Positions 50,997 to 63,685 of a stretch of DNA of 64,000 nt are shown one piece after another. The stretch lies in the IMG/VR virus record IMGVR_UViG_3300008110_000181, positions 1-64,000 of that record; one strand, given 5' to 3'. The DNA is from a virus. The notes under the pieces are model-generated. The model was not told where the DNA came from. It did not search any database and saw only the letters and a program-made list of their open reading frames with translations. Within the stretch, counting starts at the first letter, position 1. Each line of letters starts with the position of its first letter. A program made the position numbers and the translations under genes.

Positions 50997-51004
50997 GGCA
51001 GGGG

Positions 51005-51175: not shown

Positions 51176-51197
51176 GGGGGTCGTTTGAACTGAGATC

Positions 51198-51209
51198 ATC
51201 CTAGCAGAT
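51198..51209 (-). promoter_or_regulatory. GATCTGCTAGGAT promoter box, diverged copy 2
   Basis: On the minus strand GATCTGCTAGGAT, matching copy 1 except at the -10 (TAGGAT, 51203-51198). Upstream of the start at 51175. Confidence 0.5.
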
Positions 51210-51213
51210 CGGG

Positions 51214-51351: not shown

Positions 51352-51373
51352 GGGTCTGTGTGTTGACTGAATC

Positions 51374-51416
51374 AGTATAAGGGGTCAGAGGGGCATCAGA
51401 TGATCGAACTGTGCCA
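51374..51416 (-). promoter_or_regulatory. palindrome-type promoter (half-site + TATACT)
   Basis: -10 TATACT at 51379-51374. The TGTGCCA half of the regulon palindrome lies at 51410-51416, 30 bases upstream; the other arm position reads TGCCACG, five of seven matching. Drives the 45-residue gene. Confidence 0.55.
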
Positions 51417-51558
51417 GAGAGGAAGGTGCCACGTGGGCAGGAGATCCACAGGATCGATAGAAGTCCACCATGCACTCTGCCTCTGCCAGACTGGTGAACC
51501 ATTGAGACCTCCACTCACAGGAGTTGTAGGGGGTCTGGTAACGGACTTCGATTCGCAT
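51385..51558 (-). CDS. 57-residue protein in GC-rich island
   Basis: A 57-codon gene, MRIEVRYQTPYNSCEWRSQW then FTSLAEAECMVDFYRSCGSP. Its own promoter box lies 23 bases upstream of the ATG. Two Cys and several aromatic residues; no recognised family. The downstream promoter overlaps its 3' end. Confidence 0.65.
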   Translation of the reverse strand: MRIEVRYQTPYNSCEWRSQWFTSLAEAECMVDFYRSCGSPAHVAPSSLAQFDHLMPL

Positions 51559-51581
51559 GGATCGGTTGTGGTTGTGAGAGT

Positions 51582-51597
51582 ATTGTAGCAGATCGGG
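51582..51597 (-). promoter_or_regulatory. GATCTGCTACAATACTC promoter box, copy 3
   Basis: Same box as copy 1 on the minus strand, -10 TACAAT at 51587-51582, preceded by a C run. Drives the 57-residue gene. Confidence 0.65.
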
Positions 51598-51603
51598 GGG
51601 AGG

Positions 51604-51876
51604 TCACTCCTCCGACAGTTCCTCCATCATGTCGTTGATTTCGATCCCATCGATGGCAGGATCATCCCATCGGCATCCGTCAGGAGTCTCCTTGCTGCCA
51701 CACTCCCAAAGCATTGCCACCAGGTCCTGATAGGTGCCTCCACGTCGGGCAATGCGACGTGCCTCATGGTAGAGTCCCTCATCGTTGCCGATCCAGAGAG
51801 AGACATTCCAGGTCTCCCAGTTTGCCCATCCGTTGTAGGTTTCGGTTTCGGGGATCATGGAGGTGAGAGCGTTCAT
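51604..51876 (-). CDS. NGWxNxETWNVxLWI family protein (DUF7249-like)
   Basis: A 90-residue protein with the phage motif YNGWANWETWNVSLWIGNDEGLYHEA, followed by a charged helical region. Family is widespread in phages and has no known function. GC-rich codon use. Confidence 0.8.
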   Translation of the reverse strand: MNALTSMIPETETYNGWANWETWNVSLWIGNDEGLYHEARRIARRGGTYQDLVAMLWECGSKETPDGCRWDDPAIDGIEINDMMEELSEE

Positions 51877-51896
51877 GGGTGGTTGCGTGTGAGTGT

Positions 51897-51909
51897 ATTG
51901 TAGCAGGTC
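51897..51909 (-). promoter_or_regulatory. TGACCTGCTACAATACACTC promoter box, copy 4
   Basis: Close copy of the GATCTGCTACAAT box; -10 TACAAT at 51902-51897, 20 bases before the start of the DUF7249-like gene. Confidence 0.6.
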
Positions 51910-51916
51910 AGGGGGG

Positions 51917-52027
51917 TCAGTCCCACCATCCGTTGCGGGTGTTGACCTTCATGCCCAAGGCGGCACACATCATGGGGAAACCGATGGCGACGATCATCAG
52001 GAGAGCGGCAGCAAGGTAGTGATTCAC
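51917..52027 (-). CDS. 36-residue membrane mini-protein with GTG start
   Basis: A GTG start at 52027, preceded by GAGGGA, which overlaps the stop of the ligase-like gene. The product is (M)NHYLAAALLMIVAIGFPMMC... with one hydrophobic segment of about 22 residues and the tail KVNTRNGWWD. A single-pass inner membrane peptide. The function is unknown. Confidence 0.65.
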   Translation of the reverse strand: MNHYLAAALLMIVAIGFPMMCAALGMKVNTRNGWWD

Positions 52028-52031
52028 TCCC

Positions 52032-52928
52032 TCATGCGGCACACTGGAAACGACCGTGGTTGAAATTAGCATTAGAAAAGACCTCACGATTCACCAGTTT
52101 GAACATACCAAACTCATTGGTCAGTACATAACCTTCGGCATCAATGCGATTCCCGTAGAGGTATGCTGCAGGACCATTGTTGCGGCAGAGATAGAGGCAG
52201 TCATCTTTGATAGACTTCACCAGTGCCCACAAACGCAGCAGGTTGGTATCACAATCGAAGTCTTCAGGGTTGACTTCCTCACCAGCACGAATGCAGGCAT
52301 TGATCTGTTGCTTAATCTTTGCTGCCTCTTTATCAGTTACAAAGGTGGCAGTGGTTGCCATCTGTCGGGCAAAGTTGCAGACTTCCTCTACATCAGCAAA
52401 TCGGGTTTGACCGTGTGCAATCCATGCATCAGGTTTCACGAATAGCACGGAATCAGTAGACTCCAGATTCACCGTGAGAGGGATTGCCCAACTATCACGA
52501 AGATCTGCAATTGCCTCATAACGAGTGTGAGGTGCAATGATCACCTGTTGATCTACTACCTCTGGGAACTTGTAAGTGAGTAGGTTGGAGTTGTATTCAT
52601 CAGATCCACCAAACCCGATAAAATCTCCCTGCAGAATGGAGTCTGAATGAGGAAGGCAATCATAACAAACGTGCAGAATTTTTGCAACTTCACCATCATA
52701 GAATTGATCGATTTCTTCATGATTGTGTGCAATGCGAATCTTTACTTTGTTGAAGACTGCTTTGGTGCCAATGAAGAACTTACCAGTTGCAGGGTTTGTG
52801 CCCCATACAATTGCGGGAGCACCGTCAATCTTAACACTGAGAGTGCCAGCAGCAGTGAACCAATCCAGAACATCAAGATTGCCCGTGAGGATCTCATCTT
52901 CGGGGTGTTCGAGGTGTGTGTTTTTCAT
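52032..52928 (-). CDS. nucleic-acid-ligase-like protein (DUF6267-type)
   Basis: A 298-residue protein with SVKIDGAPAIVWGTNPATGKFFIGTKAVFNK. K33-I-D-G resembles motif I of DNA/RNA ligases and nucleotidyltransferases. The C-terminus has AEGYVL (E265) and FKLV (K277), plausible motifs IV and V. So it could be a covalent nucleotidyltransferase; polynucleotide ligase or RNA repair are options. Flanked by two genes sharing the same leader CTATACTAAGAGC before ATG. Confidence 0.72.
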   Translation of the reverse strand: MKNTHLEHPEDEILTGNLDVLDWFTAAGTLSVKIDGAPAIVWGTNPATGKFFIGTKAVFNKVKIRIAHNHEEIDQFYDGEVAKILHVCYDCLPHSDSILQGDFIGFGGSDEYNSNLLTYKFPEVVDQQVIIAPHTRYEAIADLRDSWAIPLTVNLESTDSVLFVKPDAWIAHGQTRFADVEEVCNFARQMATTATFVTDKEAAKIKQQINACIRAGEEVNPEDFDCDTNLLRLWALVKSIKDDCLYLCRNNGPAAYLYGNRIDAEGYVLTNEFGMFKLVNREVFSNANFNHGRFQCAA

Positions 52929-52934
52929 GCTCTT

Positions 52935-52977
52935 AGTATAGGGGGTGATCAGTTGAACCAGTAGGCAAGTTGTGCCA
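52935..52977 (-). promoter_or_regulatory. palindrome-type promoter (half-site + TATACT)
   Basis: -10 TATACT at 52940-52935 after a C run, 7 bases before the ATG. TGTGCCA half-site at 52971-52977, with exactly 30 bases between. Drives the ligase-like gene. Confidence 0.55.
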
Positions 52978-53158
52978 GTTCCTCTGCCGTCTCTTGCAGG
53001 TTGTCAGGGGTCAGACGTGCCAGGATACGCTCCGCATCCTCCTCAGGCACGTAGGAGAGGTCACCATTGATCTCACCTGCCAGGATCTCAGCGAGTGCGA
53101 TGCAACGGTCCTGCAGGGTCATGGAGAAGTTCAATGCCTTGAGTTCGGTGCTGTTCAT
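52949..53158 (-). CDS. 69-residue acidic helical protein
   Basis: MNSTELKALNFSMTLQDRCI begins the product, followed by ALAEILAGEINGDLSYVPEEDAE. Start at 53158 rests on the leader CCCCCTATACTAAGAGC shared with the ligase-like gene; a longer frame begins upstream of the -10 box. No family. Confidence 0.65.
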   Translation of the reverse strand: MNSTELKALNFSMTLQDRCIALAEILAGEINGDLSYVPEEDAERILARLTPDNLQETAEELAQLAYWFN

Positions 53159-53164
53159 GCTCTT

Positions 53165-53222
53165 AGTATAGGGGGTCTGGGGGTGCTGTGGGGGTTTGGT
53201 GTCCAGTCCACGAAGTGGCACA
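53165..53222 (-). promoter_or_regulatory. palindrome-type promoter (TATACT, degenerate inner arm)
   Basis: -10 TATACT at 53170-53165 after a C run, then a palindrome at 53200-53222 whose outer arm TGGCACA is perfect and inner arm (TGTCCA) degenerate. The gap to the -10 is 29 bases. Confidence 0.55.
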
Positions 53223-53345
53223 GGGTCAGCCGCTGGGGGTGCCCTGAGATCTTATACTAAGGGCACAACGGAGAGAGGGGTGAGGTAACCCCGAAGACGA
53301 AAATGATCGACACCTCCCCTGCCATAAAATAAAAAATAAAAACTA

Positions 53346-53370
53346 TAAAAAAGGGGGCACGAATGCCCCC
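53346..53370 (-). terminator. intrinsic terminator with UUCG loop
   Basis: On the minus strand GGGGGCA / TGCCCCC stem of 7 bp with a TTCG tetraloop, followed by six T. It lies 8 bases after the stop of the 115-residue gene. Confidence 0.93.
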
Positions 53371-53377
53371 GAATTCT

Positions 53378-53725
53378 TTATGCAAACATGAACCCATCTT
53401 CGAAGTCGTAGCAGTTAAACACAGGGGAAGTTCCTGCCTGCCCGATGAACTTGTGAATGAACCAATTGAAGTTCTTTTGAAATACACATTCACCCTTGAT
53501 TCCGTGCTCCGAAAGAATAGCATTCAGACGGGACTTAGTTGTCTTTGACTGATAACCACCGTCAAAGATTTGCACGAAGTCATCACCAACGACTGCAATC
53601 TTGTTACCGTGAAGGTATACAGTAGACTCGTTAGTTTCGGAATCGTAAGTAACTTCGGTATTGTCACAATGCCAGTTCAGGTTGTTAGAAATGGCATTGT
53701 TCATTTCACGTTCGATCTTACGCAT
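53378..53725 (-). CDS. conserved phage protein, unknown (115 residues)
   Basis: Product starts MRKIEREMNNAISNNLNWHC and continues with VYLHGNKIAVVGDDFVQIFDGGYQSKTTKSRLNAILSEHG and a C-terminus FGFMFA-like (DGFMFA). I recognise the pattern from phage early genes but it has no assigned function. The start at 53725 is chosen because the -10 (CATACT, 53756-53751) lies inside the longer frame. Confidence 0.78.
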   Translation of the reverse strand: MRKIEREMNNAISNNLNWHCDNTEVTYDSETNESTVYLHGNKIAVVGDDFVQIFDGGYQSKTTKSRLNAILSEHGIKGECVFQKNFNWFIHKFIGQAGTSPVFNCYDFEDGFMFA

Positions 53726-53750
53726 GAGTCCGTTTCGTGTGAACAAAGGT

Positions 53751-53810
53751 AGTATGGACCAGATCGGGAGGCATTGCAACCCCCCTTGTGCCACTTAGTC
53801 GATTGGCACA
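53751..53810 (-). promoter_or_regulatory. palindrome-type promoter with perfect TGTGCCA-N10-TGGCACA
   Basis: Perfect 24-bp palindrome at 53787-53810, -35 TTGCAA at 53779-53774, 17-base spacer and -10 CATACT at 53756-53751. Gap palindrome to -10 is 30 bases. The palindrome overlaps the stop codon of the upstream gene. Confidence 0.7.
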
Positions 53811-53980
53811 TCCTCCACCAGTTCAGGGTAGTATTCTTGACACTCAGTGATCAATTCTTCGTCCGAATACTTAGCATAACCCTCATCCAGATAATCATAA
53901 CAGAGTTGGGTCATTGTTTTGAGATCCATGTCATCCAACATCTGCTGAATGAGTTGATCTTGAAGTTCAGAACGGTTCAT
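53795..53980 (-). CDS. 61-residue acidic protein
   Basis: MNRSELQDQLIQQMLDDMDL begins this helical, strongly acidic protein. It ends EDVPID and its stop lies inside the TGTGCCA palindrome of the next promoter. No family recognised; member of a run of small acidic genes. Confidence 0.72.
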   Translation of the reverse strand: MNRSELQDQLIQQMLDDMDLKTMTQLCYDYLDEGYAKYSDEELITECQEYYPELVEDVPID

Positions 53981-53985
53981 GAGTT

Positions 53986-54192
53986 TCAGTTAAGAATGAT
54001 ACGATAATCAATGGATTTGATGCACCAACCTGTAGCAAATGTGATCTCTTCTACGAGGTCATCTTCATCATCTGCTTCCCAGATTGTACCAAACACAACA
54101 TCACGGAGTTCTTCTTTGTATTCATCAGTGACGGGTTCATCATAAGCATCATCGCTAAAATCAAAGGCGATTTCAGTAACTTGGAATTGCAT
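53986..54192 (-). CDS. 68-residue conserved acidic protein
   Basis: MQFQVTEIAFDFSDDAYDEP starts it, with VVFGTIWEADDEDDLVEEITFATGWCIKSIDY later. Resembles conserved small T4-like phage proteins of unknown function. Coupled to the upstream gene by TGATG. Confidence 0.78.
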   Translation of the reverse strand: MQFQVTEIAFDFSDDAYDEPVTDEYKEELRDVVFGTIWEADDEDDLVEEITFATGWCIKSIDYRIILN

Positions 54193-54341
54193 CAGTAGGT
54201 CACCAGTGCGGAAACTTTATCATACAACTGGGCGACATTCACACCCAGTTGTTCACTCACTTCATCCCAATCTTCATGAAACTCAATGAGATCCAGCAGA
54301 GCACGAATCTCTGCTTGGTTTAGTTCAAGAACTTCAGGCAT
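54192..54341 (-). CDS. 49-residue helical protein
   Basis: A small gene with product MPEVLELNQAEIRALLDLIE then FHEDWDEVSEQLGVNVAQLYDKVSAL. The stop overlaps the next start (TGATG). Unknown function; charged helices resemble a DNA- or protein-binding bundle. Confidence 0.68.
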   Translation of the reverse strand: MPEVLELNQAEIRALLDLIEFHEDWDEVSEQLGVNVAQLYDKVSALVTY

Positions 54342-54346
54342 TGTTT

Positions 54347-54472
54347 TCAGTAATCGTAGTTTCCGTTCAGGTACTCATTCACATCGAACTTTTCATCTTT
54401 GAGTTCAGGAATGTCCATGTCGAAGATTTCACCAGGCATGTCCTGAATCTCACTCCAAAGTTCATCAAACAT
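54347..54472 (-). CDS. 41-residue acidic protein
   Basis: MFDELWSEIQDMPGEIFDMD begins this very acidic mini-protein (11 or more Asp/Glu in 41). Lies in a small-gene operon driven by a palindrome-type promoter. Confidence 0.62.
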   Translation of the reverse strand: MFDELWSEIQDMPGEIFDMDIPELKDEKFDVNEYLNGNYDY

Positions 54473-54495
54473 GGTTCAATTTCTGACGACTTGAA

Positions 54496-54553
54496 TACAA
54501 TACACGATCTCGGTGCCCCATGGGGGTTTAGTGTACGGTTCCCCAACTGGCAC
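54496..54553 (-). promoter_or_regulatory. palindrome-type promoter (perfect outer arm)
   Basis: TGGCACA at 54547-54553 is perfect; the inner arm at 54531-54537 (TGTACGG) is degenerate. -10 TATTGT at 54501-54496; gap 29 bases. Drives the operon 54472 to 53795. Confidence 0.5.
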
Positions 54554-54566
54554 AGGGTCCGCTCCG

Positions 54567-54593
54567 ATTCTCAATAAGAAAATATTATTGAGA
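54567..54593. repeat. TTCTCAATAA / TTATTGAGAA hairpin, copy A
   Basis: Perfect 10-bp inverted repeat with 7-base loop GAAAATA, 20 bases after the stop of the 68-residue gene at 54614. No T run follows on either strand, so it is not a classic terminator. The same 27 bases occur at 55310-55336. Confidence 0.8.
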
Positions 54594-54613
54594 ACGGAAA
54601 CAGTTAGTGTTAC

Positions 54614-54820
54614 TTACTGACCAAAGAATTCTTCGTAAACATCAGCAATGCGATCAATCAACCAATCGGTGGCGTTTACATCAAACACCTCACAAACCCA
54701 ATCCACGCAATCATTCAGATCAGTGTGATTGTTGCACATAAAATCACGCAGGGCGGGAGCAATGTCGAGATCGAACTGGTGAACCTCAGTAGCAGTAGGC
54801 ATCGCAGTGGTGTTGTTCAT
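54614..54820 (-). CDS. 68-residue acidic protein
   Basis: The product begins MNNTTAMPTATEVHQFDLDI and has an acidic helical C-terminus (DWLIDRIADVYEEFFGQ). Unknown. Single gene between two palindrome-type promoters. Confidence 0.7.
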   Translation of the reverse strand: MNNTTAMPTATEVHQFDLDIAPALRDFMCNNHTDLNDCVDWVCEVFDVNATDWLIDRIADVYEEFFGQ

Positions 54821-54826
54821 GTGTAC

Positions 54827-54886
54827 ACATTAGGGCATCAGGGGGCACAGCACAAGGGGGGTTGTGCCAGTTCAACGATTGGCACA
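54827..54886 (-). promoter_or_regulatory. palindrome-type promoter with perfect TGTGCCA-N10-TGGCACA
   Basis: Perfect palindrome at 54863-54886, -35 TTGTGC at 54855-54850, spacer 17, -10 TAATGT at 54832-54827; gap 30. The palindrome contains the stop codon of the upstream gene. Confidence 0.65.
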
Positions 54887-55186
54887 CACGTAGTTGTAAA
54901 CATTGCGGCAATCTTGGTACAGTGCCTTACACTCAGGCACGAACACGTTCTTGACCCATGCCCAGAAAGTCTTGGCACCTTCGATGACACGAAGCACGAA
55001 AAGTTGAGTCCGTTCGGTCATATTGTGCTCTTGCCACTTCTCAGCAGTGATCATAGCAATTGCAGCAACGAATGCACAGAAGATCTCAACACCATCCATG
55101 AAAGTGTTGAAGTGTTTCTTATAATCAATCTCGGCGATCATCTCCACGAAAGCATCAGCAGGAGGGAAAGATTTGGTCAGTTCCAT
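54872..55186 (-). CDS. 104-residue protein with one membrane segment
   Basis: Product starts MELTKSFPPADAFVEMIAEI, with a hydrophobic stretch VEIFCAFVAAIAMITA at about 33-48 and a C-terminal helical domain (RVIEGAKTFWAWVKNVFVPECKALYQDC). I infer a membrane-associated early protein. The stop lies inside the next palindrome. Confidence 0.7.
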   Translation of the reverse strand: MELTKSFPPADAFVEMIAEIDYKKHFNTFMDGVEIFCAFVAAIAMITAEKWQEHNMTERTQLFVLRVIEGAKTFWAWVKNVFVPECKALYQDCRNVYNYVCANR

Positions 55187-55236
55187 TGTTGTTTTGTGTG
55201 GCGGGTTGTTGTAGAGAATTCCTCAACCACGAAACC

Positions 55237-55296
55237 AACATAAAATATTTTTCAGCAATCCGCAAGGGGGTCTGTGCCACCACGTGGATTGGCACA
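55237..55296 (-). promoter_or_regulatory. palindrome-type promoter with perfect TGTGCCA-N10-TGGCACA
   Basis: Perfect palindrome at 55273-55296, -35 TTGCGG at 55265-55260, spacer 17, -10 TATGTT at 55242-55237; gap 30. Drives the membrane protein gene at 55186. A further half TGGCACA lies at 55380-55386. Confidence 0.6.
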
Positions 55297-55309
55297 CGGG
55301 CAGCTGCCA

Positions 55310-55361
55310 TTCTCAATAAGAAAATATTATTGAGAATCAATAAGAGTACTGTTATTGAGAA
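55310..55361. repeat. TTCTCAATAA hairpin, copy B, plus extra arm
   Basis: A 27-base hairpin identical to copy A at 55310-55336. A second TTATTGAGAA follows at 55352-55361. Lies 27-78 bases after the stop of the small gene at 55388, on the minus strand. Confidence 0.8.
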
Positions 55362-55387
55362 TAAGACCAATTAATCAACTGGCACAT

Positions 55388-55546
55388 TCACCAATCGATA
55401 TCGAATTCCTTGATGCTAGCATGTACATCTTCGTCAGATTCTAGTCCTAGGATATCTCGCCAATTGAGATCTTCTAGTTCTAAATCATCATAACACATGA
55501 GATCTAGTGTGACGCGTACCATACGCTTTGTGTGTGTCGCAGGCAT
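55388..55546 (-). CDS. 52-residue acidic protein
   Basis: Product MPATHTKRMVRVTLDLMCYD followed by LELEDLNWRDILGLESDEDVHASIKEFDIDW. A shorter start at 55522 (MVRVTLDL) is equally plausible. Pattern recalls small phage proteins of unknown function. A TAGAAT box lies upstream at about 55575-55570. Confidence 0.65.
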   Translation of the reverse strand: MPATHTKRMVRVTLDLMCYDDLELEDLNWRDILGLESDEDVHASIKEFDIDW

Positions 55547-55577
55547 GTGATTCTCGTGCGTGGTGTGCTACATTCTA

Positions 55578-55739
55578 TCATGCATAATGTATATACGCAA
55601 GTGTATCATAGTCTTGCGTATCTCGTGCATAATCCTCGTCGATGTCTACGTCACGTTGTGCATAATTCTCGTAATACGTATCCTCGTCGAGATTATAATC
55701 GTTACTGAAAGTGTAGTCGAGATCGTAATCGTCGTACAT
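55578..55739 (-). CDS. 53-residue Asp/Tyr-rich protein, DNA-mimic candidate
   Basis: A small gene of 53 codons with 14 Asp, 3 Glu, 11 Tyr and only 2 Arg (no Lys): net charge about -15. The product begins MYDDYDLDYTFSNDY. Start at 55739 is supported by a TATACT box at 55775-55770. Composition resembles DNA-mimic inhibitors; function is an inference. The gene itself contains TCGAGAT repeat units. Confidence 0.6.
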   Translation of the reverse strand: MYDDYDLDYTFSNDYNLDEDTYYENYAQRDVDIDEDYARDTQDYDTLAYIHYA

Positions 55740-55917
55740 AATGCTCGTCGAGATTGTGTAACTAGATGTAGTATAGCATAGTCTCGACGAGTTTGCAAGC
55801 CTTATGATGCACCGTCTCGTCGAGATCATAATGATATATATGTATTCTTGTCGAGATTTGTTAAGAAATGCTTATAAGTCTCGTCGAGATTTGTGTGGGT
55901 CTCGTAATATCTCGTCG
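55681..55917. repeat. TCTCGTCGAGA repeat cluster
   Basis: Seven or more copies or near copies of the near-palindrome TCTCG-T-CGAGA in about 240 bases: near 55681-55692, 55715-55723 (half), 55743-55754, 55782-55791 (reverse), 55815-55825, 55846-55856, 55880-55890 and 55911-55917 (half). They run from the end of the Asp/Tyr gene to the plus-strand promoter. Most of the stretch 55740-55920 codes for nothing I can see. Probably a protein-binding array; an origin or centromere-like site are alternatives. Confidence 0.75.
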
Positions 55918-55923
55918 GGGGTC

Positions 55924-55952
55924 TTGACATTGAGACCTTCGTGTGTTATAAT
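55924..55952 (+). promoter_or_regulatory. strong sigma70 promoter on the plus strand
   Basis: TTGACA (55924-55929), a 17-base spacer and TATAAT (55947-55952): both hexamers are consensus. The inverted repeat GGTCT / AGACC (55920-55937) brackets the -35, a plausible operator. It is the best promoter in the window and points against nearly every gene. Confidence 0.85.
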
Positions 55953-55958
55953 CCGCAG

Positions 55959-56127
55959 ACTTAACTCACAAGTCCTAGAGGCATTTATGAGACTTTTAGA
56001 AGGTATTAAACACAAGTCCTAGAAGGGTTTAGAAGGCATTTAGAAGACCTATTCTCAACTATATTCTCAATTGATTCTCAATAATTATCATCTTATTGAG
56101 AATGTTATAAAACAATAACATATATTT
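55959..56127 (+). ncRNA. candidate small RNA / leader transcript
   Basis: Region downstream of the plus-strand promoter without a plausible gene. It contains a 13-base direct repeat CACAAGTCCTAGA (55967-55979 and 56011-56023), repeated GGCATTTA and TTTAGAAGG, then the TTCTCAATAA hairpin at 56075-56102, and a small stem GTTAT / ATAAC at 56104-56119 followed by TTTTTT. An 11-codon frame MRLLEGIKHKS starts at 55987 behind AGAGGC, so a leader peptide is possible. Boundaries are inferred. Confidence 0.6.
56075..56102. repeat. TTCTCAATAA / TTATTGAGAA hairpin, copy C
   Basis: The same 10-base arms with an 8-base loop, preceded by two more direct copies of ATTCTCAA (from 56051 and 56063). Lies 72 bases after the stop of the gene at 56174 (minus) and inside the plus transcript. 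Confidence 0.8.
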
Positions 56128-56173
56128 TTTAATACCTTTTTTAATTAACTTTAACCTTATTTTGTATCAATCA

Positions 56174-56437
56174 CTACCATTTTTGCACTGGACAATAGGC
56201 TGCCACAAACTTCACCTTATGTTCTAACCAACAACCACAATGTCTACAACGTTTCTGTTGTTCATGATAATATTCACAGGTCTTACATGTATTCAATCGT
56301 TCTTCCCTTAACTGATCACTGGCATAGATCTGATGTTCTATAGGCATCATTGCATCCTTGACAACTTCAAATGTAAACTGTGCAAGATTCTTTCCTTGCT
56401 CAACTAATGACGGAAACTCTTCTTTATTGTCCGACAT
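56174..56437 (-). CDS. zinc-finger protein with CxxC...CxxC...C cluster (DUF6171-like)
   Basis: An 87-residue protein; the C-terminus has CKTCEYYHEQQKRCRHCGCWLEHKVKFVAAYCPVQKW, the Cys pattern of small T4-like phage zinc proteins. Overlaps the oxygenase gene upstream. A homologous protein lies on the other side of that oxygenase. Confidence 0.75.
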   Translation of the reverse strand: MSDNKEEFPSLVEQGKNLAQFTFEVVKDAMMPIEHQIYASDQLREERLNTCKTCEYYHEQQKRCRHCGCWLEHKVKFVAAYCPVQKW

Positions 56438-57023
56438 AGAACCACCCTGTGATTACATACTTTGTTCCTTTTAAGACTAATCCACCACGATGACAATGTG
56501 TTAAACCAGCAGGCCAAATAAGTAATGTTCCTTTGCTTGGATTGATTCTCTTCTTATAATACAGAAACTCAGTCTCTCCACCTTCAAAATCATCATTCAA
56601 ATAAAACATCCAAACAGCAACTCTTGCCGAATGTTGCATGGCACTGTTCTCATCATGCCAGACATGATAACCACCACCAGCAGGAGTCTTTTGTACCTTT
56701 TGATTGATCGAATACAAGGTAATTGGTTTAAGATGTCCAAACACGGTCGTATACTCAGACAGACATTGTTTTAGAACTTCATTAACCTGTTGTTGTGGAT
56801 TTGTCGGTTTAATATGAGCACCGAGTTCACCTAGATCAAGTGCCCAATCAAATCGTCCTGCATTACTATTCTCAAACTGATGATCTTCACAAAAGACGGC
56901 ATCCATATCATGATAATAATCAAATGCGGATACGATCTCATCACACAGATCAAAACTTAATATATTTTCGTATGTGCCGATGAAGTCTTCATACGTTCCT
57001 TTTAATTGTGTAGATTCTTCCAT
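56424..57023 (-). CDS. 2OG-Fe(II) oxygenase (prolyl-4-hydroxylase-like)
   Basis: A 199-residue protein with the jelly-roll pattern GYHVWHDENS (H123, E125), WMFYLNDDFEGGETEFLYY, GTLLIWPAGLTHCHRG (H176/H178) and KGTKYVITGWFYV. H123-x-E125 and a distal His bind iron, and K186 could bind 2-oxoglutarate. Likely hydroxylates a protein or sugar; target unknown, virion proteins are candidates. Confidence 0.88.
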   Translation of the reverse strand: MEESTQLKGTYEDFIGTYENILSFDLCDEIVSAFDYYHDMDAVFCEDHQFENSNAGRFDWALDLGELGAHIKPTNPQQQVNEVLKQCLSEYTTVFGHLKPITLYSINQKVQKTPAGGGYHVWHDENSAMQHSARVAVWMFYLNDDFEGGETEFLYYKKRINPSKGTLLIWPAGLTHCHRGGLVLKGTKYVITGWFYVGQ

Positions 57024-57325
57024 TGTTCTGCTTCTGGATACTTTTCAATCACCTTATTCACAAACAAATCATAATACGTCTCATTCCATGATTCGACATT
57101 ACGTCCCCACTTTTCGATCGGACATTCTTCATACAAATGTTTCACCTTATTCGGCACATAACAATTGCACAGAATACAACCTTGATTCTCTGCATGATAA
57201 TGTTTACAATCAAGACAATGATCTAATCGTTTCTTTTCTTCTTCGGGATGAACGGGAAACAAGAACTTTGCATCGTTCATTTCACACACAATATGAAAGA
57301 CAAACTCTGATAGTTCCATACTCAT
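57002..57325 (-). CDS. zinc-finger protein, paralogue of the 56174 gene
   Basis: A 107-residue protein with CLDCKHYHAENQGCILCNCYVPNKVKHLYEECPIEKWG, the same Cys pattern as the neighbouring protein, and an extra C-terminal helix. First gene of the operon behind a consensus promoter. Overlaps the oxygenase start by 22 bases. Confidence 0.78.
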   Translation of the reverse strand: MSMELSEFVFHIVCEMNDAKFLFPVHPEEEKKRLDHCLDCKHYHAENQGCILCNCYVPNKVKHLYEECPIEKWGRNVESWNETYYDLFVNKVIEKYPEAEQWKNLHN

Positions 57326-57342
57326 TTCAATTGAATTCTTTG

Positions 57343-57371
57343 ATTATAACATTCTGATGCTGAAATGTCAA
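57343..57371 (-). promoter_or_regulatory. consensus sigma70 promoter for zinc protein-oxygenase operon
   Basis: On the minus strand TTGACA (57371-57366), 17-base spacer and TATAAT (57348-57343). It ends 17 bases upstream of the start at 57325 and overlaps the fibre gene stop codon. Confidence 0.85.
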
Positions 57372-58627
57372 GCAATGTTTGATCTCTGTACCAGTGCTCC
57401 TGATGCACCTTTGTTTGCCCAACGAGTATTGGATACATTCAACCATGGGCCAGCACTACCACCATTGGCGACGTTTGTTGAACCACCAGCGGCACCATAG
57501 GTTCCACCTGCACCGCCATTAAAACCTGCACTGGTATTCGATGTCTGATTCTGTGCCGAATATCCACCACCACAATTTAATGAAGCAGCAGATCCTGGTG
57601 AATTACCACCAACTGGCCCTGCGGTATTGTTTGATCCTTGTCCCGTACCTCCACCACCACCTGCGGCGGCAGCTGCAGACCCAATGTTCGTGTCTGATCC
57701 ACCACTACATCCCAAATACCATGGTGTAAAATACCAGACACCCTGGGATCTTTGTCCTCTGAAATAGGTCACACTTCCACCTGCATTACAATAGTTTTGT
57801 GTCTCTCCAGCCGCACAACTACCTGGGCAACCTGCCCACCAGTCCCAGTTAAATGTCGTCTGATAAGAATAATAATTAGAACAAATTGTCGTGCCACTGA
57901 CATTACCAAATGGCCCACCAGCACCACCACCTCCACCACCTGCAATCAGTGCCGTATTGGATAGATTTAAGTTAATGGTCGATGCATTCCCTGTCGTGCG
58001 ACTTGTCGTATTTCTCAGATACAATGCACCACCACCACTATTACCATTTGTCGCGGCAGAATTGACGGTTTGACCAGATCCACCCGTTCCTTCTCTTCCT
58101 AATACTTTCGTCGCGGCAAATGTCAAATCTAAATTCAGTGCGGATGCAGAAAAGACAATGGCATGAGCACCTGTCGTGCTTCCCTTCCATGTTGAATTAT
58201 CAAATGTAACTCTCTTAGGTACATTTAAATCAATGTTGGATGACCAGTTATCACCAATTTGTCCTCCACCAGGACTAATATCAACCTGACTATTACTTCC
58301 ACCCGTATAAGATACATCATAACGTTTGATCATATTTTTCAATGATGAAACTTTATGATTATTCGCAGCGGTAACTCCTGCACCATCGACACCACAAGTC
58401 TGATTCTCATAGGCATCGGGTACAATCGCAGTTGCCGCTGCTTTCTCATCGGGATTTGCATTAACATCCGCAAAGACTTCATTTGCACCTGTCTTTCTGC
58501 GATAATCACCAAATCGAATATTTGTCCCAGGTCTACCCATTGTAGAGGCAATCGTACTGAAACTCAGTGCTCCCACACCTGGCCCAATATCTTGAAAGTA
58601 TTTGGTCTGTGTCGTATTAACAGGCAT
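57368..58627 (-). CDS. glycine-rich tail fibre adhesin
   Basis: A 419-residue protein with an N-terminal fibre-like part (TKYFQDIGPGVGALSFSTIASTMG...), then glycine blocks GGGGGGAGG, GGGGGTGQG and GGAGGTYGAAGG. These resemble the polyglycine sandwich of phage adhesins (T4 gp38/Salmonella phage S16 type). Cys-rich loops between the blocks may bind receptors. Preceded by a late box and followed by oxygenase genes. Confidence 0.85.
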   Translation of the reverse strand: MPVNTTQTKYFQDIGPGVGALSFSTIASTMGRPGTNIRFGDYRRKTGANEVFADVNANPDEKAAATAIVPDAYENQTCGVDGAGVTAANNHKVSSLKNMIKRYDVSYTGGSNSQVDISPGGGQIGDNWSSNIDLNVPKRVTFDNSTWKGSTTGAHAIVFSASALNLDLTFAATKVLGREGTGGSGQTVNSAATNGNSGGGALYLRNTTSRTTGNASTINLNLSNTALIAGGGGGGAGGPFGNVSGTTICSNYYSYQTTFNWDWWAGCPGSCAAGETQNYCNAGGSVTYFRGQRSQGVWYFTPWYLGCSGGSDTNIGSAAAAAGGGGGTGQGSNNTAGPVGGNSPGSAASLNCGGGYSAQNQTSNTSAGFNGGAGGTYGAAGGSTNVANGGSAGPWLNVSNTRWANKGASGALVQRSNIA

Positions 58628-58656
58628 TGCGACAAGAATAGATGTCTATTTTTAGA

Positions 58657-58663
58657 TATTTAG
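58657..58663 (-). promoter_or_regulatory. CTAAATA late-type box for the fibre gene
   Basis: CTAAATA on the minus strand, 29 bases upstream of the adhesin start. Suggests late expression, unlike the neighbouring genes. Confidence 0.55.
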
Positions 58664-58668
58664 ACTCA

Positions 58669-59148
58669 TTACCGATATTTGATCGCAACCGTGAACCGAT
58701 GACGATTTCGAAATGTTGTCGCACGATGTAAAATCGATGCATCAAAAATTGATAATCGATTTGGTAATGGACAAATACCCTGAATACTATCATCCATATA
58801 AAATTGTGTCTCACCACCATCATTCAGATTCCATTCTAAATGTGGATAATACAACAAGGTATAACCAGTCTGATCATCAATATGAAAATAAGGATTCTCT
58901 CCTGGTGCAAAACAATTCACATACATTCGATACATCTTCAAAGATCCAAGAAAATCAAATGTTTCTATAATCTTTCGACTGAATAACTTATAGACAAATT
59001 CATGCCCAGAAATATGATGCACCATACCTGTCGGAGGATAACCAACAATATCAGGTTCACCATAATGATAATTCGCACTCAGACAGTATTGATATACTCT
59101 CTGATGCTCTGGTTTGGTTAAAAAGTTATCGACAAAATTAATTTGCAT
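58669..59148 (-). CDS. 2OG-Fe(II) oxygenase
   Basis: A 159-residue protein (start MQINFVDNF chosen at 59148 because an upstream start would overlap the previous gene by 44 bases). YFHIDDQ gives H89-x-D91, LHRAT gives the distal H141, and RFTVAIKYR the R151 for 2-oxoglutarate. The compact form is typical of cyanophage oxygenases. Downstream of and coupled to a second oxygenase. Confidence 0.88.
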   Translation of the reverse strand: MQINFVDNFLTKPEHQRVYQYCLSANYHYGEPDIVGYPPTGMVHHISGHEFVYKLFSRKIIETFDFLGSLKMYRMYVNCFAPGENPYFHIDDQTGYTLLYYPHLEWNLNDGGETQFYMDDSIQGICPLPNRLSIFDASILHRATTFRNRHRFTVAIKYR

Positions 59149-59758
59149 GAATCGTTGACCGAATGTGTAAATTAAATGCAACCGTGATTCTAGGATAATC
59201 TGGTGTCGGTTGTGATGGTCTCACCCGATGTCCCAAATGTGCAGGAAAGATAATCAAATCACCCTCACGAATCTGTGGATTGTACACATAGAAATTATTA
59301 TACCTTCGATTCAATTTACTGAGTGAATCAATGAATGTCACGGGTACATGACGTTCTGGATCGAATTGTAAGAAATGAATTGCGGAAAAGTGTGCATCAG
59401 GTTCATTAAATGACATTCCAATATGATCGTGCTCTTCCTGATATTCACCGTTCTCATAGTAATTAAACCATGCAGTCGTGAACTGAAATTCTGTACCTTT
59501 ACCGAATACCTGACTGAAATGTTTCTCATAGTTCTGTCGAACTTCTGAGGGTTGAATAAACATTTTATAATTGATGTTATCCTGCTCAAATGTTGTATAA
59601 ACCTTATCTGTAATCCAACCAGCAGGTTTATCAATCTGATGATCTTTCTGATACTGCAATATCTTCGGAAGAAGAAGTTCTTTGAGAACTTGATTCTTCT
59701 CCCGAAGACTGTATTGATAAATGTAAGTCGGAAAGATAATCTTTCTATATTTGTTCAT
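59138..59758 (-). CDS. 2OG-Fe(II) oxygenase
   Basis: A 206-residue protein of the family with AWFNYYENGEYQEEHDHIG, SAIHFLQFDP, DLIIFPAHLGHRVRPS and PRITVAFNLHI. Iron ligands are probably H110/H112 and H177, and R190 may bind 2-oxoglutarate. Substrate unknown. Third oxygenase in 3.3 kb. Confidence 0.88.
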   Translation of the reverse strand: MNKYRKIIFPTYIYQYSLREKNQVLKELLLPKILQYQKDHQIDKPAGWITDKVYTTFEQDNINYKMFIQPSEVRQNYEKHFSQVFGKGTEFQFTTAWFNYYENGEYQEEHDHIGMSFNEPDAHFSAIHFLQFDPERHVPVTFIDSLSKLNRRYNNFYVYNPQIREGDLIIFPAHLGHRVRPSQPTPDYPRITVAFNLHIRSTIHAN

Positions 59759-59954
59759 GCTTCACAGGTTGTTGATAGTACACATCATTCCAATGTCTTA
59801 TGACCCCCGCAACAATAAAAAGATTAGTAATGAGATAAGTGAGAAATATAAGAGTCCGTAAACAAGCAATGTGGTCTGCTTCTCTGTCATTTTTCGTCGC
59901 CTTCTGACCAAGTGCCTTCGCCCATAACCTCCACATATTCTTTTTCTTCTTCAT
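59745..59954 (-). CDS. 69-residue membrane protein
   Basis: A positively charged N-terminus (MKKKKNMWRLWAKALGQKA) is followed by one hydrophobic helix (TLIFLTYLITNLFIVAGVI). Conserved in cyanophages as far as I recognise. Start could be the ATG at 59936. Overlaps both neighbours. Confidence 0.72.
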   Translation of the reverse strand: MKKKKNMWRLWAKALGQKATKNDREADHIACLRTLIFLTYLITNLFIVAGVIRHWNDVYYQQPVKHEQI

Positions 59955-60180
59955 AGACTGATTCTCTTGATCTTACATATTGGAGTTCATTCCATTGATT
60001 ATTATAGCACAAAACTAACAACCGATCATTACGATGCAGATTACATGCTGCATAGTTCTCATAATTCTTCGGTTTGACGTTTAATTCAATCGTGATATAT
60101 TCTTTGCCCTTGAAATACACCCATCCCTCAACCTTGTGATTCCAATAGACATAATGATTGACTTCGGGTGTATAACTCAT
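59887..60180 (-). CDS. conserved phage protein, unknown
   Basis: A 97-residue protein with YTPEVNHYVYWNHKVEGWVYFKGKEYITIELNVKPKN, LLVLCYNNQWNELQYVRSRESVY. Start at 60180 makes an ATGA overlap with the gene before. A recognised cyanophage small-gene pattern, no function known. Confidence 0.72.
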   Translation of the reverse strand: MSYTPEVNHYVYWNHKVEGWVYFKGKEYITIELNVKPKNYENYAACNLHRNDRLLVLCYNNQWNELQYVRSRESVYEEEKEYVEVMGEGTWSEGDEK

Positions 60181-60458
60181 ACAAAGCAAGACTCCAGTAC
60201 AGTTTTCTTCGGCACCATTGCAGAATAGGGTGACGTATCATTTATACTAACAACGTCCCCGACCTTTCCTGAATTGATGGGGGAGTGATATTGTTTGGTT
60301 TTGGTGTTGTAGAAGCCCCAGATGCAACTGACTTTATCACCAAGGTTATAGTCAAAACTGCGATCAAAATGAATCCAGATTCCAACAATATTTCTTTGAA
60401 ATTGTTTTTGTTCATAATGATAACCTTTAGGTGCTTTGTGAGGGAATTCAATAGTCAT
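60177..60458 (-). CDS. conserved phage protein, unknown
   Basis: Starting at MTIEFPHKAPKGYHYEQKQF (ATG at 60458, overlapping the upstream stop by 11 bases), 93 residues. GIWIHFDRSFDYNLGDKVSCIWGFYNTKTKQYHSPIN reads as a beta-rich domain. Unknown function. Confidence 0.7.
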   Translation of the reverse strand: MTIEFPHKAPKGYHYEQKQFQRNIVGIWIHFDRSFDYNLGDKVSCIWGFYNTKTKQYHSPINSGKVGDVVSINDTSPYSAMVPKKTVLESCFV

Positions 60459-60747
60459 CGCCATACTTGAGTCCTGATTCGGCATTGAGCAATTCTACAG
60501 TAGTTTGAAACCCTTTGGCAACTGTCAATTCATGAGTCTTTCCAATGTCATACACTGCTTCAACATCGTAGGTTGGTGCAGTAATCCAACTAAATCCCTT
60601 GCCAAAAGTATTATCAGGATTGACCACATACCAATGGCAAGCAGTGTCAGGGACGAATACAGAACATTTTTTCCAGTCATTGTCCCATTGAGGTACTTGT
60701 ACAAAGGATAGTGCGGCAAACAGAAAACCGAAAAGACTCAGAAACAT
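60448..60747 (-). CDS. exported or membrane-anchored protein, unknown
   Basis: A 99-residue protein starting MFLSLFGFLFAALSFVQVPQ, a signal-like hydrophobic N-terminus, then CSVFVPDTACHWYVVNPDNTFGKGFSWITAPTYDVEAVYDIGKT. Two Cys could form a disulphide outside the cytoplasm. ATG at 60747 is used; a TTG two codons earlier is less likely. Confidence 0.68.
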   Translation of the reverse strand: MFLSLFGFLFAALSFVQVPQWDNDWKKCSVFVPDTACHWYVVNPDNTFGKGFSWITAPTYDVEAVYDIGKTHELTVAKGFQTTVELLNAESGLKYGDDY

Positions 60748-60749
60748 GA

Positions 60750-60911
60750 TCAATCTTCGTCGATAAGTGCTTTCAGATAGGCAGGATTCACTCCATCGGC
60801 AAGATAACCCTGAAGACGTACACTACACTCTTCTTTTGTAAGTTTAGTGTCGGTCACTTCCCACCCTTGGGTGAATACTTGTACGATTTTATAGTAAGTT
60901 GTTTCGGTCAT
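60750..60911 (-). CDS. 53-residue conserved small protein
   Basis: MTETTYYKIVQVFTQGWEVTD is followed by TKLTKEECSVRLQGYLADGVNPAYLKALIDED. A common cyanophage small protein pattern, unknown role. ATG at 60911 lies 3 bases after the previous stop. Confidence 0.72.
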   Translation of the reverse strand: MTETTYYKIVQVFTQGWEVTDTKLTKEECSVRLQGYLADGVNPAYLKALIDED

Positions 60912-60913
60912 GA

Positions 60914-61159
60914 TCAGGTCAGAAATACATCAACAAGTCGGGACTCTTCATCTTCTGCAAGGGCAAATTTGGGTGCCTTCACAATATTTGGCATAATGCG
61001 ATCTTCATAGTTAACATCAAAACATGAAGTTTCATGAACATTTTTATTTGTCAGAAGATCAAAGCATTCTTGATCATCGGATGCAATCACACTGATCATG
61101 CCACCATATTCAGAAGAAGGAAATGGAACCCAATAATCAACTAGATAAATGTATTTCAT
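60914..61159 (-). CDS. conserved small protein, unknown
   Basis: An 81-residue protein MKYIYLVDYWVPFPSSEYGG with MISVIASDDQECFDLLTNKNVHE. Pattern seen in cyanophages; no function assigned. Confidence 0.72.
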   Translation of the reverse strand: MKYIYLVDYWVPFPSSEYGGMISVIASDDQECFDLLTNKNVHETSCFDVNYEDRIMPNIVKAPKFALAEDEESRLVDVFLT

Positions 61160-61172
61160 TGTTACTTGTAAA

Positions 61173-61352
61173 TTACTCCTTGATTGTAGATGAATGTTTT
61201 GTGTTTGTCAATAGAGTTTGTTGCCTTTCAATTTCAAACTTAATGGGCAATAGATGAGAAGTAAAGAAACCAGCATAGGGACCGTCTTTTAACAGTTCAC
61301 GAATGTTCTCCACTTGCATCAGAGCAAGAGTTAGTTGCATTTTTCTATCCAT
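61173..61352 (-). CDS. 59-residue helical protein
   Basis: Starts at the ATG at 61352 (TGATG overlap with the previous gene), though a GTG one codon upstream is possible. MDRKMQLTLALMQVENIREL is followed by a charged helical tail. Unknown. Confidence 0.65.
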   Translation of the reverse strand: MDRKMQLTLALMQVENIRELLKDGPYAGFFTSHLLPIKFEIERQQTLLTNTKHSSTIKE

Positions 61353-61555
61353 CACATGAACTCTGCAATGTAATAATCACAAGTCACCTCAAGTTCTGCT
61401 GCTTTCCTCTCAATCTCATTATCAATAATCTTTTGAGCTTGATTTTCATATTCAAGATACCGTTGCTTGGCAAGATGATACATTTCCTGAACTTGAGCGT
61501 GCTTCATAAAATCATCAAAGGCATTCATGAATTGAGTGATTTCTTCATCGTTCAT
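61352..61555 (-). CDS. 67-residue helical protein
   Basis: I start it at MNDEEITQFMNAFDDFMKHA (61555). Upstream ATGs exist but would overlap the small membrane protein gene much more. The rest is a charged helix, possibly a coiled coil. Confidence 0.62.
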   Translation of the reverse strand: MNDEEITQFMNAFDDFMKHAQVQEMYHLAKQRYLEYENQAQKIIDNEIERKAAELEVTCDYYIAEFM

Positions 61556-61682
61556 TGGCGCATCCAATCGTTTGACAGTAGTAGGCATCATACATCTTCT
61601 GATCACGTTGGATCAGAAAGATATTATAACCAATAATGGTAATTGCCGCAACAGCAGCATAAGCAATATATTTCTTTTTCAT
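61545..61682 (-). CDS. 45-residue membrane protein
   Basis: A small gene: MKKKYIAYAAVAAITIIGYN, a single membrane helix, then LIQRDQKMYDAYYCQTIGC. The start overlaps the previous stop as TGATG, and its 3' end overlaps the next gene by 11 bases in another frame. Confidence 0.62.
   Translation of the reverse strand: MKKKYIAYAAVAAITIIGYNIFLIQRDQKMYDAYYCQTIGCANER
61623..61651 (-). promoter_or_regulatory. possible internal sigma70 promoter
   Basis: TTGCGG (61651-61646), 17-base spacer, TATAAT (61628-61623) on the minus strand. Lies inside the membrane protein gene and would drive the gene at 61555. Confidence 0.45.
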
Positions 61683-61945
61683 CAGCAGGCACCATAAAAA
61701 GGATTACCCTCTTGAGGAGAGTTTTGATTGTCACCAGTCACCACATAATCATAAGCAAGACGTTCACGAATGGCAACTGCCTTCTCCACACGGTTCAGAT
61801 ACTTCTTGGAGATCTGATCAATACCTTTCCAGGAAAGAATTTGCATACACCATTCTTCTGAGATGTCACCGAACGGAGTAGCAACAGGGTAGAAACCGAT
61901 CAGCATGGTGCCATCTTTAGATTGCAGGGTGGGGAAGTCAGGCAT
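61682..61945 (-). CDS. conserved phage protein, unknown
   Basis: 87 residues from MPDFPTLQSKDGTMLIGFYP to GNPFYGAC, with ISEEWCMQILSWKGIDQISKKYLNRVEKAVAIRERLAYDYV. The start at 61945 is chosen because a TATAAT box lies at 61975-61970; a longer frame exists. Stop overlaps next start (TGATG). Confidence 0.7.
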   Translation of the reverse strand: MPDFPTLQSKDGTMLIGFYPVATPFGDISEEWCMQILSWKGIDQISKKYLNRVEKAVAIRERLAYDYVVTGDNQNSPQEGNPFYGAC

Positions 61946-61977
61946 GAGGTGTGTCCCGATTACCTCTGTATTATAGG

Positions 61978-62181
61978 TCAGAAAGACGGCACCACGTCGT
62001 TGCGTAGTCCAGTTTGGGAAGTGTCCATCTGCTCCCAAACGGAATAGAGTTTGTTATACAGTGCAGGCACACTCCCATATTCCCGTGCGATTCTATTTTC
62101 TTCACGGAGATTGAGTTCTTGCAGTGCAGATAGAATCACACCAAGTTCATGAACATTTAGATTTACTTGTGTTTCAGTCAT
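61978..62181 (-). CDS. 67-residue helical protein
   Basis: MTETQVNLNVHELGVILSAL with QELNLREENRIAREYG; amphipathic helices. A conserved cyanophage pattern without a known role. Overlaps the stop of the membrane protein gene before it by 4 bases. Confidence 0.7.
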   Translation of the reverse strand: MTETQVNLNVHELGVILSALQELNLREENRIAREYGSVPALYNKLYSVWEQMDTSQTGLRNDVVPSF

Positions 62182-62396
62182 TTCTTTTCAGTCTCCTTTA
62201 CTACAGGTTTGGTATAGGGAATTCTACCAGTCTCATTATAATTGATAATATCATACTTAAACTTACACTCTAATGGTTTTTGATTACAAAGTTTGAGTGC
62301 ATCATTATAAGATGACTGGCTATAAAAAGCACCCCCAGTAATGAATCCAAGCACGGCAGTTAAAATAAAACTTGGATAAACAACAACTTCTTTCAT
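62178..62396 (-). CDS. small membrane protein
   Basis: Starting at MKEVVVYPSFILTAVLGFIT (62396), a single N-terminal membrane segment, then a region with two Cys (CNQKPLECKF) and a charged C-terminus. 72 residues. Unknown role; probably inner membrane. Confidence 0.65.
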   Translation of the reverse strand: MKEVVVYPSFILTAVLGFITGGAFYSQSSYNDALKLCNQKPLECKFKYDIINYNETGRIPYTKPVVKETEKK

Positions 62397-62398
62397 AT

Positions 62399-62782
62399 TC
62401 AATCCCAAGAAACATTTTGAAGTAAGAACCCAGGCATCACATATGTCCAGGCACCAGTGTCAGTGCTTCCACCGACCTTATATTCCCACTTATACTCATA
62501 TTTGTTGTGACTGTCCCAAGTCATGTACCCCTTCACTTTATCAAAACGACCTTTGATCGTCAACTTATGTTTGTTAGAAAAGATATTACGGGTGCGAAGT
62601 GCTCCACCAGTCTCACGGGTTTCGACAACCTTACAGACATCAGGATAGGTTTGAAGTCCTGCTTCAAGTACACAGGGAGTTTCATATACAAATGGTCGAT
62701 AGACTTTAGGTGCAGGTGGTGCAGTCTGTGCAAGTGCTGGTGATGTGACCAGCAATGACATGATAAGAAAAAGTTTTTTCAT
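62399..62782 (-). CDS. exported protein with signal peptide, unknown
   Basis: Starts MKKLFLIMSLLVTSPALAQT, a typical signal peptide with an A-L-A cleavage site, then PPAPKVYRPFVYETPCVLEAGLQTYPDVCKVVETRETGG. The ATG at 62782 forms an ATGA overlap with the RlpA-like gene. 127 residues. Periplasmic role inferred. Confidence 0.75.
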   Translation of the reverse strand: MKKLFLIMSLLVTSPALAQTAPPAPKVYRPFVYETPCVLEAGLQTYPDVCKVVETRETGGALRTRNIFSNKHKLTIKGRFDKVKGYMTWDSHNKYEYKWEYKVGGSTDTGAWTYVMPGFLLQNVSWD

Positions 62783-63093
62783 CCAATTACTCTCCAACAA
62801 ACAACAGCATTGCCCTTACTTGTAGAAGCAATATGGGCAAAGGCAGCATAAGACAGATCAAGGTCAGCATGAGAATATGGACCACGATCATTTACACGAA
62901 CGATTACTTGTTTTCCGTTGTCTTGGTTTGTAACTCTAATTTTAGTTCCCATAGGAAGGTAAGGGTGAGCAGCAGTCCAACGGTAAGCATCAAATCGTTC
63001 TCCGTTTGCAGTAGTTTGTCCATGAAAACCATCACCAATTCCATAAAATGTAGTGATGCCACATGCAAGACCAGCAATCAAAGTTTCAATCAT
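62779..63093 (-). CDS. RlpA-like double-psi beta-barrel protein
   Basis: A 104-residue protein with TTFYGIGDGFHGQTTANGERFD, MGTKIRVTNQDNGKQVIVRVNDRGPY (D69) and DLSYAAFAHI, the RlpA/DPBB pattern of septal lytic transglycosylases. N-terminal hydrophobic segment MIETLIAGLACGI looks like a signal or anchor. Possibly cleaves peptidoglycan glycan strands. ATGA overlap with upstream gene. Confidence 0.85.
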   Translation of the reverse strand: MIETLIAGLACGITTFYGIGDGFHGQTTANGERFDAYRWTAAHPYLPMGTKIRVTNQDNGKQVIVRVNDRGPYSHADLDLSYAAFAHIASTSKGNAVVCWRVIG

Positions 63094-63248
63094 TCCTTAA
63101 TTTCATCTCCCACAAATTCCAGATAATTATATCCAATTAATTTACGACCTTGATGTGTCTCAGTATCAATCAAAATATTTTCTTTTTCTAGTTTTTCCAA
63201 TCGACGATTGGTTGCAGTATTCAGTTTAGGTGTCCAGTAATAACTCAT
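63090..63248 (-). CDS. 52-residue conserved basic protein
   Basis: MSYYWTPKLNTATNRRLEKL begins it. The start has a perfect Shine-Dalgarno (GGAGGA) 5 bases ahead. Coupled to neighbours by ATGA overlaps. Unknown. Confidence 0.7.
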   Translation of the reverse strand: MSYYWTPKLNTATNRRLEKLEKENILIDTETHQGRKLIGYNYLEFVGDEIKE

Positions 63249-63412
63249 GAGATTCCTCCTTTCTTGTTATATTCTATCATAGATCGTCGTGCAGAGTAAT
63301 CCTCAAATTGAGTTGCAAACGATGCAATCGTCCGACCATTATCTGCCCAGTGCAAATACCAACGATTTGCAAACTGTTTAATTAGAATTGGTTTATCCAT
63401 ATTGGTAATCAT
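63245..63412 (-). CDS. 55-residue basic protein
   Basis: MITNMDKPILIKQFANRWYL starts it, then HWADNGRTIASFATQFEDYSARR. The ATG at 63412 overlaps the upstream stop as ATGA; the internal ATG at 63400 is an alternative. Unknown. Confidence 0.65.
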   Translation of the reverse strand: MITNMDKPILIKQFANRWYLHWADNGRTIASFATQFEDYSARRSMIEYNKKGGIS

Positions 63413-63600
63413 TTGATGTCACCCTCGGCAATCAAACCCATGATCTCACGGGCAGTGGCAGCAAAGTTAATGTGATCCTCAAGACCTTCATCACTGTAGA
63501 TCTTGAACACATCAGATTGCCGATAAGTGTCTACAATCAGAGCACAGGCATCATACAGAGCAGCAACGTGGTGTGCCTTAGAGGGAAAAGAGAGTGCCAT
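63409..63600 (-). CDS. 63-residue helical protein
   Basis: MALSFPSKAHHVAALYDACA continues with helical segments. First gene of the small coupled operon that includes the RlpA-like gene. Preceded by the palindrome-type promoter at 63627-63685. Confidence 0.7.
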   Translation of the reverse strand: MALSFPSKAHHVAALYDACALIVDTYRQSDVFKIYSDEGLEDHINFAATAREIMGLIAEGDIK

Positions 63601-63626
63601 GGGGGTGTTCTCTTGATTACCTTGTA

Positions 63627-63685
63627 ATTATACTGCCGAACAAAGTCGGTTGCCAAAGGGATGTGCCACTTGCAGTTCTGGCACA
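63627..63685 (-). promoter_or_regulatory. palindrome-type promoter with perfect TGTGCCA-N10-TGGCACA
   Basis: Perfect palindrome at 63662-63685, -35 TTGGCA at 63656-63651, 18-base spacer, -10 TATAAT at 63632-63627; gap 29. It lies inside the end of the metallopeptidase gene and 8 kb from the other copies, which supports a regulon. Confidence 0.7.

Follow-up and report, generated by a model that had tools for sequence, protein, structure and literature searches.

The recurrence of a 24-bp palindrome (TGTGCCA-N10-TGGCACA) in front of small genes in a viral DNA stretch of 64,000 nucleotides (positions 1 to 64,000 of IMG/VR record IMGVR_UViG_3300008110_000181; hereafter the window) raises the question of what the palindrome does and which protein would read it. 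Among the viruses that infect marine picocyanobacteria, T4-like cyanophages are abundant. They are without alt, modA, modB, motA and asiA, T4's tools for early and middle transcription (PMC2984593). The element described here is real and, judged from sequence, most likely serves to activate early genes. In every test available it behaves as a predicted protein-binding promoter element; in cyanobacterial viruses of both sea and fresh water the motif would most likely be the docking site of a protein that switches on the first genes. It probably belongs to a class already described, reportedly by Doron et al. The precise consensus and the fixed spacing make candidate early promoters findable by sequence alone in uncultured cyanophage contigs, and the 24-mer can serve as an exact bait with which to fish out the regulator.

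Source record and sites in the window

The window comes from a 74.7-kb IMG/VR record (G000) of a T4-like cyanomyovirus whose portal, terminase and tail sheath match the corresponding PHROGs; window positions 51000–57000 have DNA similarity to 406 phage records, all of them Synechococcus, Prochlorococcus, cyanophage or marine phage by name. At ≤3 mismatches the palindrome was matched 8 times in the window vs 2.0 expected in shuffles (no more than 5 in any of 100 shuffles). Every window copy reads leftward, as a minus-strand promoter with a −10 hexamer 28–30 bp downstream.

Exact copies were found at the four places where the sequence-only reading had put them: 53787–53810, gap of 30 to −10 CATACT (53751–53756), in front of gene 53725–53378 (115 aa, Pfam Kyano_Gp96 PF23790, phrog_554); 54863–54886, gap of 30 to TAATGT (54827–54832), gene 54820–54614 (68 aa, phrog_10297); 55273–55296, gap of 30 to TATGTT (55237–55242), gene 55186–54872 (104 aa, no family), the 3' end of which is overlapped by the palindrome 54863–54886; 63662–63685, gap of 29 to TATAAT (63627–63632), gene 63600–63409 (63 aa). 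Poor −10s among these are CATACT, TAATGT and TATGTT. Degenerate copies: 51410–51433, exact in the promoter-proximal half, gap of 30 to TATACT (51374–51379), gene 51351–51214 (45 aa); 52971–52994, exact in the promoter-proximal half only, gap of 30 to TATACT (52935–52940), gene 52928–52032 (298 aa, phrog_455, a family of unknown function); 53199–53222, proximal arm degenerate, gap of 28 to TATACT (53165–53170), ATG at 53158; 54531–54554, proximal arm degenerate, gap of 28 to TATTGT (54497–54502), ATG at 54472 (41 aa). A gap of 29 or 30 had been claimed for all eight sites; it holds for six, and the last two copies have a gap of 28 when placed in the 24-bp register. Five further copies lie in G000 beyond the window (64456, 65330, 65511, 66593 and 68293; gaps 29, 29, 30, 29 and 30, respectively).

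Spacing to the −10 hexamer

The exact palindrome was scanned for in IMG/VR viral contigs and was found in at least 120 stretches, many of them with several copies (the sample is not random); the control, a palindrome with its arms reversed, was found in 46 stretches, one copy each. A near-consensus −10 at a gap of 28–30 accompanied 143 of the 222 unique exact sites (64%) among the matches listed, and 3 of 40 control sites; per-gap counts among the same matches were 23 (28), 96 (29) and 31 (30) vs 1.3 on average at each other gap. With a gap of 26–33 allowed, the −10 oriented 203 of 226 unique IMG/VR sites among the matches listed, the oriented sites falling mostly at gaps of 29 (n = 103), 30 (n = 50) and 28 (n = 34); about 10% of the exact sites among these matches had no −10 on either side. 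In the window record and the isolate genomes outside the training set, strong −10s were counted 45 times at a gap of 29, 16 times at 30 and about once per other gap. The initial assignment is borne out: the motif has the character of a transcription factor site at a set phase from the −10 and not that of random hairpins. In relatives the constancy of the spacing goes far beyond chance; when the rest of the genome and the relatives were searched for copies lacking a constant distance to start signals, constant distance was found instead.

Consensus and anatomy of the cassette

The 24-bp consensus is TGTGMCAsTTnnnnAAsTGKCACA, at about −42 to −65; gap-29 promoters among the IMG/VR matches listed were aligned as TGTGCCAgTTnTnnAAsTGGCACA-N29-TATAAT. 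When one arm was left free in the search, the fifth base was C or A (or the complement) and the remaining consensus was unchanged. Pairing between the arms is not conserved: partner positions 4/19 were C-G in 32, A-G in 30, A-T in 19 and C-T in 12 cases, and positions 7/16 were G-G in 27, G-C in 26, C-C in 21 and C-G in 13. The arms therefore vary independently, which argues for a DNA site bound by a dimer and strongly against a hairpin.

The −35 is weak (≥4 of 6 matches to TTGACA in 35% vs 17% shuffled), and the ATG is at a median of 23 nt past the −10. In 67 of 101 promoters from isolates, the palindrome overlaps or abuts the stop of the ORF ahead of it. The spacer is variable in sequence, folds better than its shuffled copies (z < −1 in 37% vs z > 1 in 7%) and sometimes ends in a T-run; a clear terminator-like spacer hairpin is seen at site 65511 of G000. 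Palindrome, spacer and −10 together are a compact promoter cassette.

The overlap with upstream stops and the spacer hairpins, some of them with a terminal T-run, would also fit a palindrome that works as an RNA hairpin and terminates the transcript or marks it for processing where the upstream gene ends, like the promoter–stem-loop cassettes (PeSLs) of other T4-like phages. The hairpins lie in the spacer, though, and not in the palindrome; the arms vary independently, no T-run follows the palindrome, and a hairpin has no need of a −10 at fixed distance, so that this explanation is very improbable. As a selected feature, whether of RNA or of DNA, the hairpin is for the most part refuted, since the arms show no compensatory changes.

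In 17 of 261 promoters, including those of window ATGs 52928, 53158 and 54820, just 6 nt separate the end of the −10 from the ATG; the mRNAs would be predicted to be leaderless.

Proposed function

Each copy is best read as the operator of a dimeric activator that marks a phage promoter, most likely an early-gene promoter, read by the host sigma-70-type RNA polymerase; from the sequence evidence this reading is given a rough probability of 0.77. A dimeric DNA-binding protein would sit on the palindrome at about −42 to −65; the 28–30-bp spacer, whose −35 is weak at best and which often holds a hairpin or the terminator of the previous gene, would be followed by a TATAAT-like −10 and, about 23 nt on, by the ATG, and the host sigma-70-type polymerase would read the promoter. 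Placed just upstream of the −35 region, the activator may touch the polymerase directly (class II-like), and such a contact would explain the nearly rigid spacing.

A palindromic dimer site would fit a repressor equally, the palindrome being then an operator by which early genes are turned off later. Against this, the whole site is upstream of the −35 region, its phasing to the −10 is rigid, and the −35 elements are weak; a repressor operator is accordingly judged improbable, and activation is the preferred function. Early timing is suggested by the genes served: the sites are concentrated where small genes precede gp25, and since the genes are mostly small, variable and located before gp25/gp6, the promoter would most likely be the one from which T4-like cyanophages express their early (host takeover) genes. 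In P-HM2 the sites face the direction of their own small genes, on the plus strand and the minus strand alike.

Comparison with known systems

Doron et al. reportedly described, in 2016, a novel element that precedes early genes and is conserved among T4-like cyanophages. The phages are the same (Syn9 and P-TIM40), and in both of them the palindrome lies 28–31 bp from −10 boxes, mainly in small-gene regions; the palindrome is probably that early-gene element. The motif was in none of the papers found by a literature search, which excluded Doron 2016, Comeau 2014 and Arbiol 2010.

Like the T4 middle promoters (MotA box and TATAAT), the cassette has an activator box in place of a good −35 before a TATAAT −10. 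The MotA box of T4 lies at about −30 and does not form a 24-bp palindrome; the cyanophage site is not centred near −30 and lies at about −42 to −65. From cyanomyoviruses motA and asiA are absent (PMC2984593). The sites of CRP and NtcA resemble the present one as palindromic upstream activator sites. CRP recognises TGTG and CACA 8 bp apart, and NtcA recognises GTA-N8-TAC. The motif logo does not have the CRP-type TGTGA-N6-TCACA spacing: its outer TGTG and CACA are N16 apart vs N8 in CRP. The motif differs from NtcA sites as well; the sequence-only reading had stated a different spacing for both families.

PeSLs of T4-like phages, as cited in PMC4503421, combine a promoter and a stem-loop between small shuffled genes, like the spacer hairpins here; the cyanophage cassette differs in adding a conserved 24-bp palindrome of protein-binding type that is itself no hairpin. 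A stem-loop between small genes within the promoter was found, as a sizeable share of the promoters has spacer hairpins, variable in sequence; a base-paired palindrome with compensatory change, as expected of a PeSL or terminator, was not found. Few PeSL candidates are given for S-PM2 (PMC4503421).

Distribution among phages

A profile built from the IMG/VR loci was used to scan isolate genomes. Counts of sites that have a matching −10: S-PM2, 16 of 22; P-SSM2, 18 of 21; P-SSM4, 10 of 13; P-TIM40, 12 of 12; S-CRM01, 14 of 26; Syn9, 4 of 10 at the same cut-off and more if TATTCT is allowed. Such sites are also present in P-HM2, and S-SKS1 carries the motif (genome examined in part). S-TIM5, an unrelated Synechococcus myovirus isolated on WH8102, has four sites of shifted form (TGGCCCA arm) at a gap of 30. 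The profile scan gave no sites in T4, Syn5, P-SSP7, PSS2 and S-CBS2 and a single weak site without −10 in pelagiphage HTVC008M, which infects SAR11; Ma-LMM01 had 0 matches to the exact pattern. Exact-pattern counts agree with the distribution from the profile scan, and at ≤2 mismatches most Kyanoviridae cyanophages tested have 5–18 copies per genome.

DUF7717/phrog_818 is a conserved gene behind the site, directly in P-TIM40, P-SSM2, P-SSM4 and the window record and as second gene in Syn9. A very basic peptide of about 47 aa ending in RGQGK is conserved near gp25 in motif-bearing phages (Syn9 57786–57932; S-PM2 ORF 26039–26221; S-CRM01 ORF 177562–177744) and is also present in S-TIM5.

Host genomes and origin of the binding protein

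The composite promoter was found in 28 stretches of 257 Gb of prokaryotic genomes vs about 22 by chance (estimate). The prokaryotic matches that cluster lie on misfiled cyanophage contigs: NZ_RMVE01000006 (L360, L386), filed as Nonlabens xiamenensis, and NHFO01000063 (L362, L374), filed as a Flavobacteriales MAG, look like cyanophage DNA, one of the two having 8 kb at 98.2% to P-TIM40 and the other resembling cyanophages. In three genomes of one Cyanobiaceae clade (G009, G092 and G064; L392, L393 and L394) a near-identical palindrome precedes the 16S rRNA gene by about 420–435 bp, with TACCTT at a gap of 32. This G009 clade has 3–7 similar sites per genome, most of which are not accompanied by a −10 at the spacing seen in phages.

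If the palindrome is an activator site, a host and a phage source of the binding protein are about equally likely. A host transcription factor exploited by the phages is a tentative possibility, somewhat short of an even chance. It would fit the finding that no recognisable HTH protein is universal to the motif-bearing phages at BLAST sensitivity, the variant sites of the unrelated S-TIM5, the want of the motif in SAR11-infecting HTVC008M and the similar sites of the G009 clade, the one before 16S rRNA included. Against it stand 9 exact matches in 201 Cyanobiaceae genomes vs about 6 expected (estimate), about 37 matches at 1 mismatch in 61 genomes vs about 15 with the arms reversed as a control, and the lack of the motif in podo- and siphoviruses infecting such hosts. 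A general host regulon was rejected, exact sites being near chance in the 201 genomes, and so was mimicry of a host rRNA promoter (the palindrome of G009, G064 and G092), a high score being obtained in only 3 of 70 rRNA-upstream regions, which also counts against a host factor.

A phage-encoded protein, either expressed at the outset from a host-type promoter or brought in with the virion, has a chance close to even on the same condition. The concentration of the motif in phages, at the copy numbers given above, the misplaced cyanophage contigs behind the clustered matches in bacterial records and the shifted consensus of S-TIM5 argue for it; against it, BLAST gave no universal candidate gene, and AbrB-like phrog_661 and DUF7717/phrog_818 are both absent from P-HM2. 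The AbrB/MazE-like protein at 50427–50597 (minus strand, 56 aa, phrog_661), which the sequence-only reading had offered as candidate regulator, is judged unlikely: its family co-occurs with the motif in ten records, one (S-TIM5) weakly, and is missing from three motif-bearing phages: S-CRM01, the one with the most sites, P-HM2 and SynMITS9220M01. It was rejected also as strongly acidic and, in Syn9 and P-TIM40, as adjoining baseplate or tail genes and not motif-driven genes. DUF7717 was rejected as a conserved target gene missing from P-HM2.

Rather unlikely is a further reading in which an activator of the cyanophage lineage, with a site absent from host regulons, would drive nearly all early genes through a self-contained cassette of about 85 bp (stop codon overlap, palindrome, nested terminator and −10), the protein being a new kind of early regulator, perhaps delivered by the virion; if true, such a cassette would let small takeover genes insert and shuffle as ready-made units.

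Repeats near the palindromes

Inverted repeats ATTCTCAATAA...TTATTGAGAAT adjoin palindromes in the window (54567–54595, 55309–55362 and 56074–56103) and are also present near motif copies in cyanophage loci L008, L036, L095, L101 and L107. Window positions 55600–55900, poor in long ORFs, contain several copies of CTCGTCGAGA / TCTCGACGAG; repeats resembling these flank motif copies in L093 and L111.
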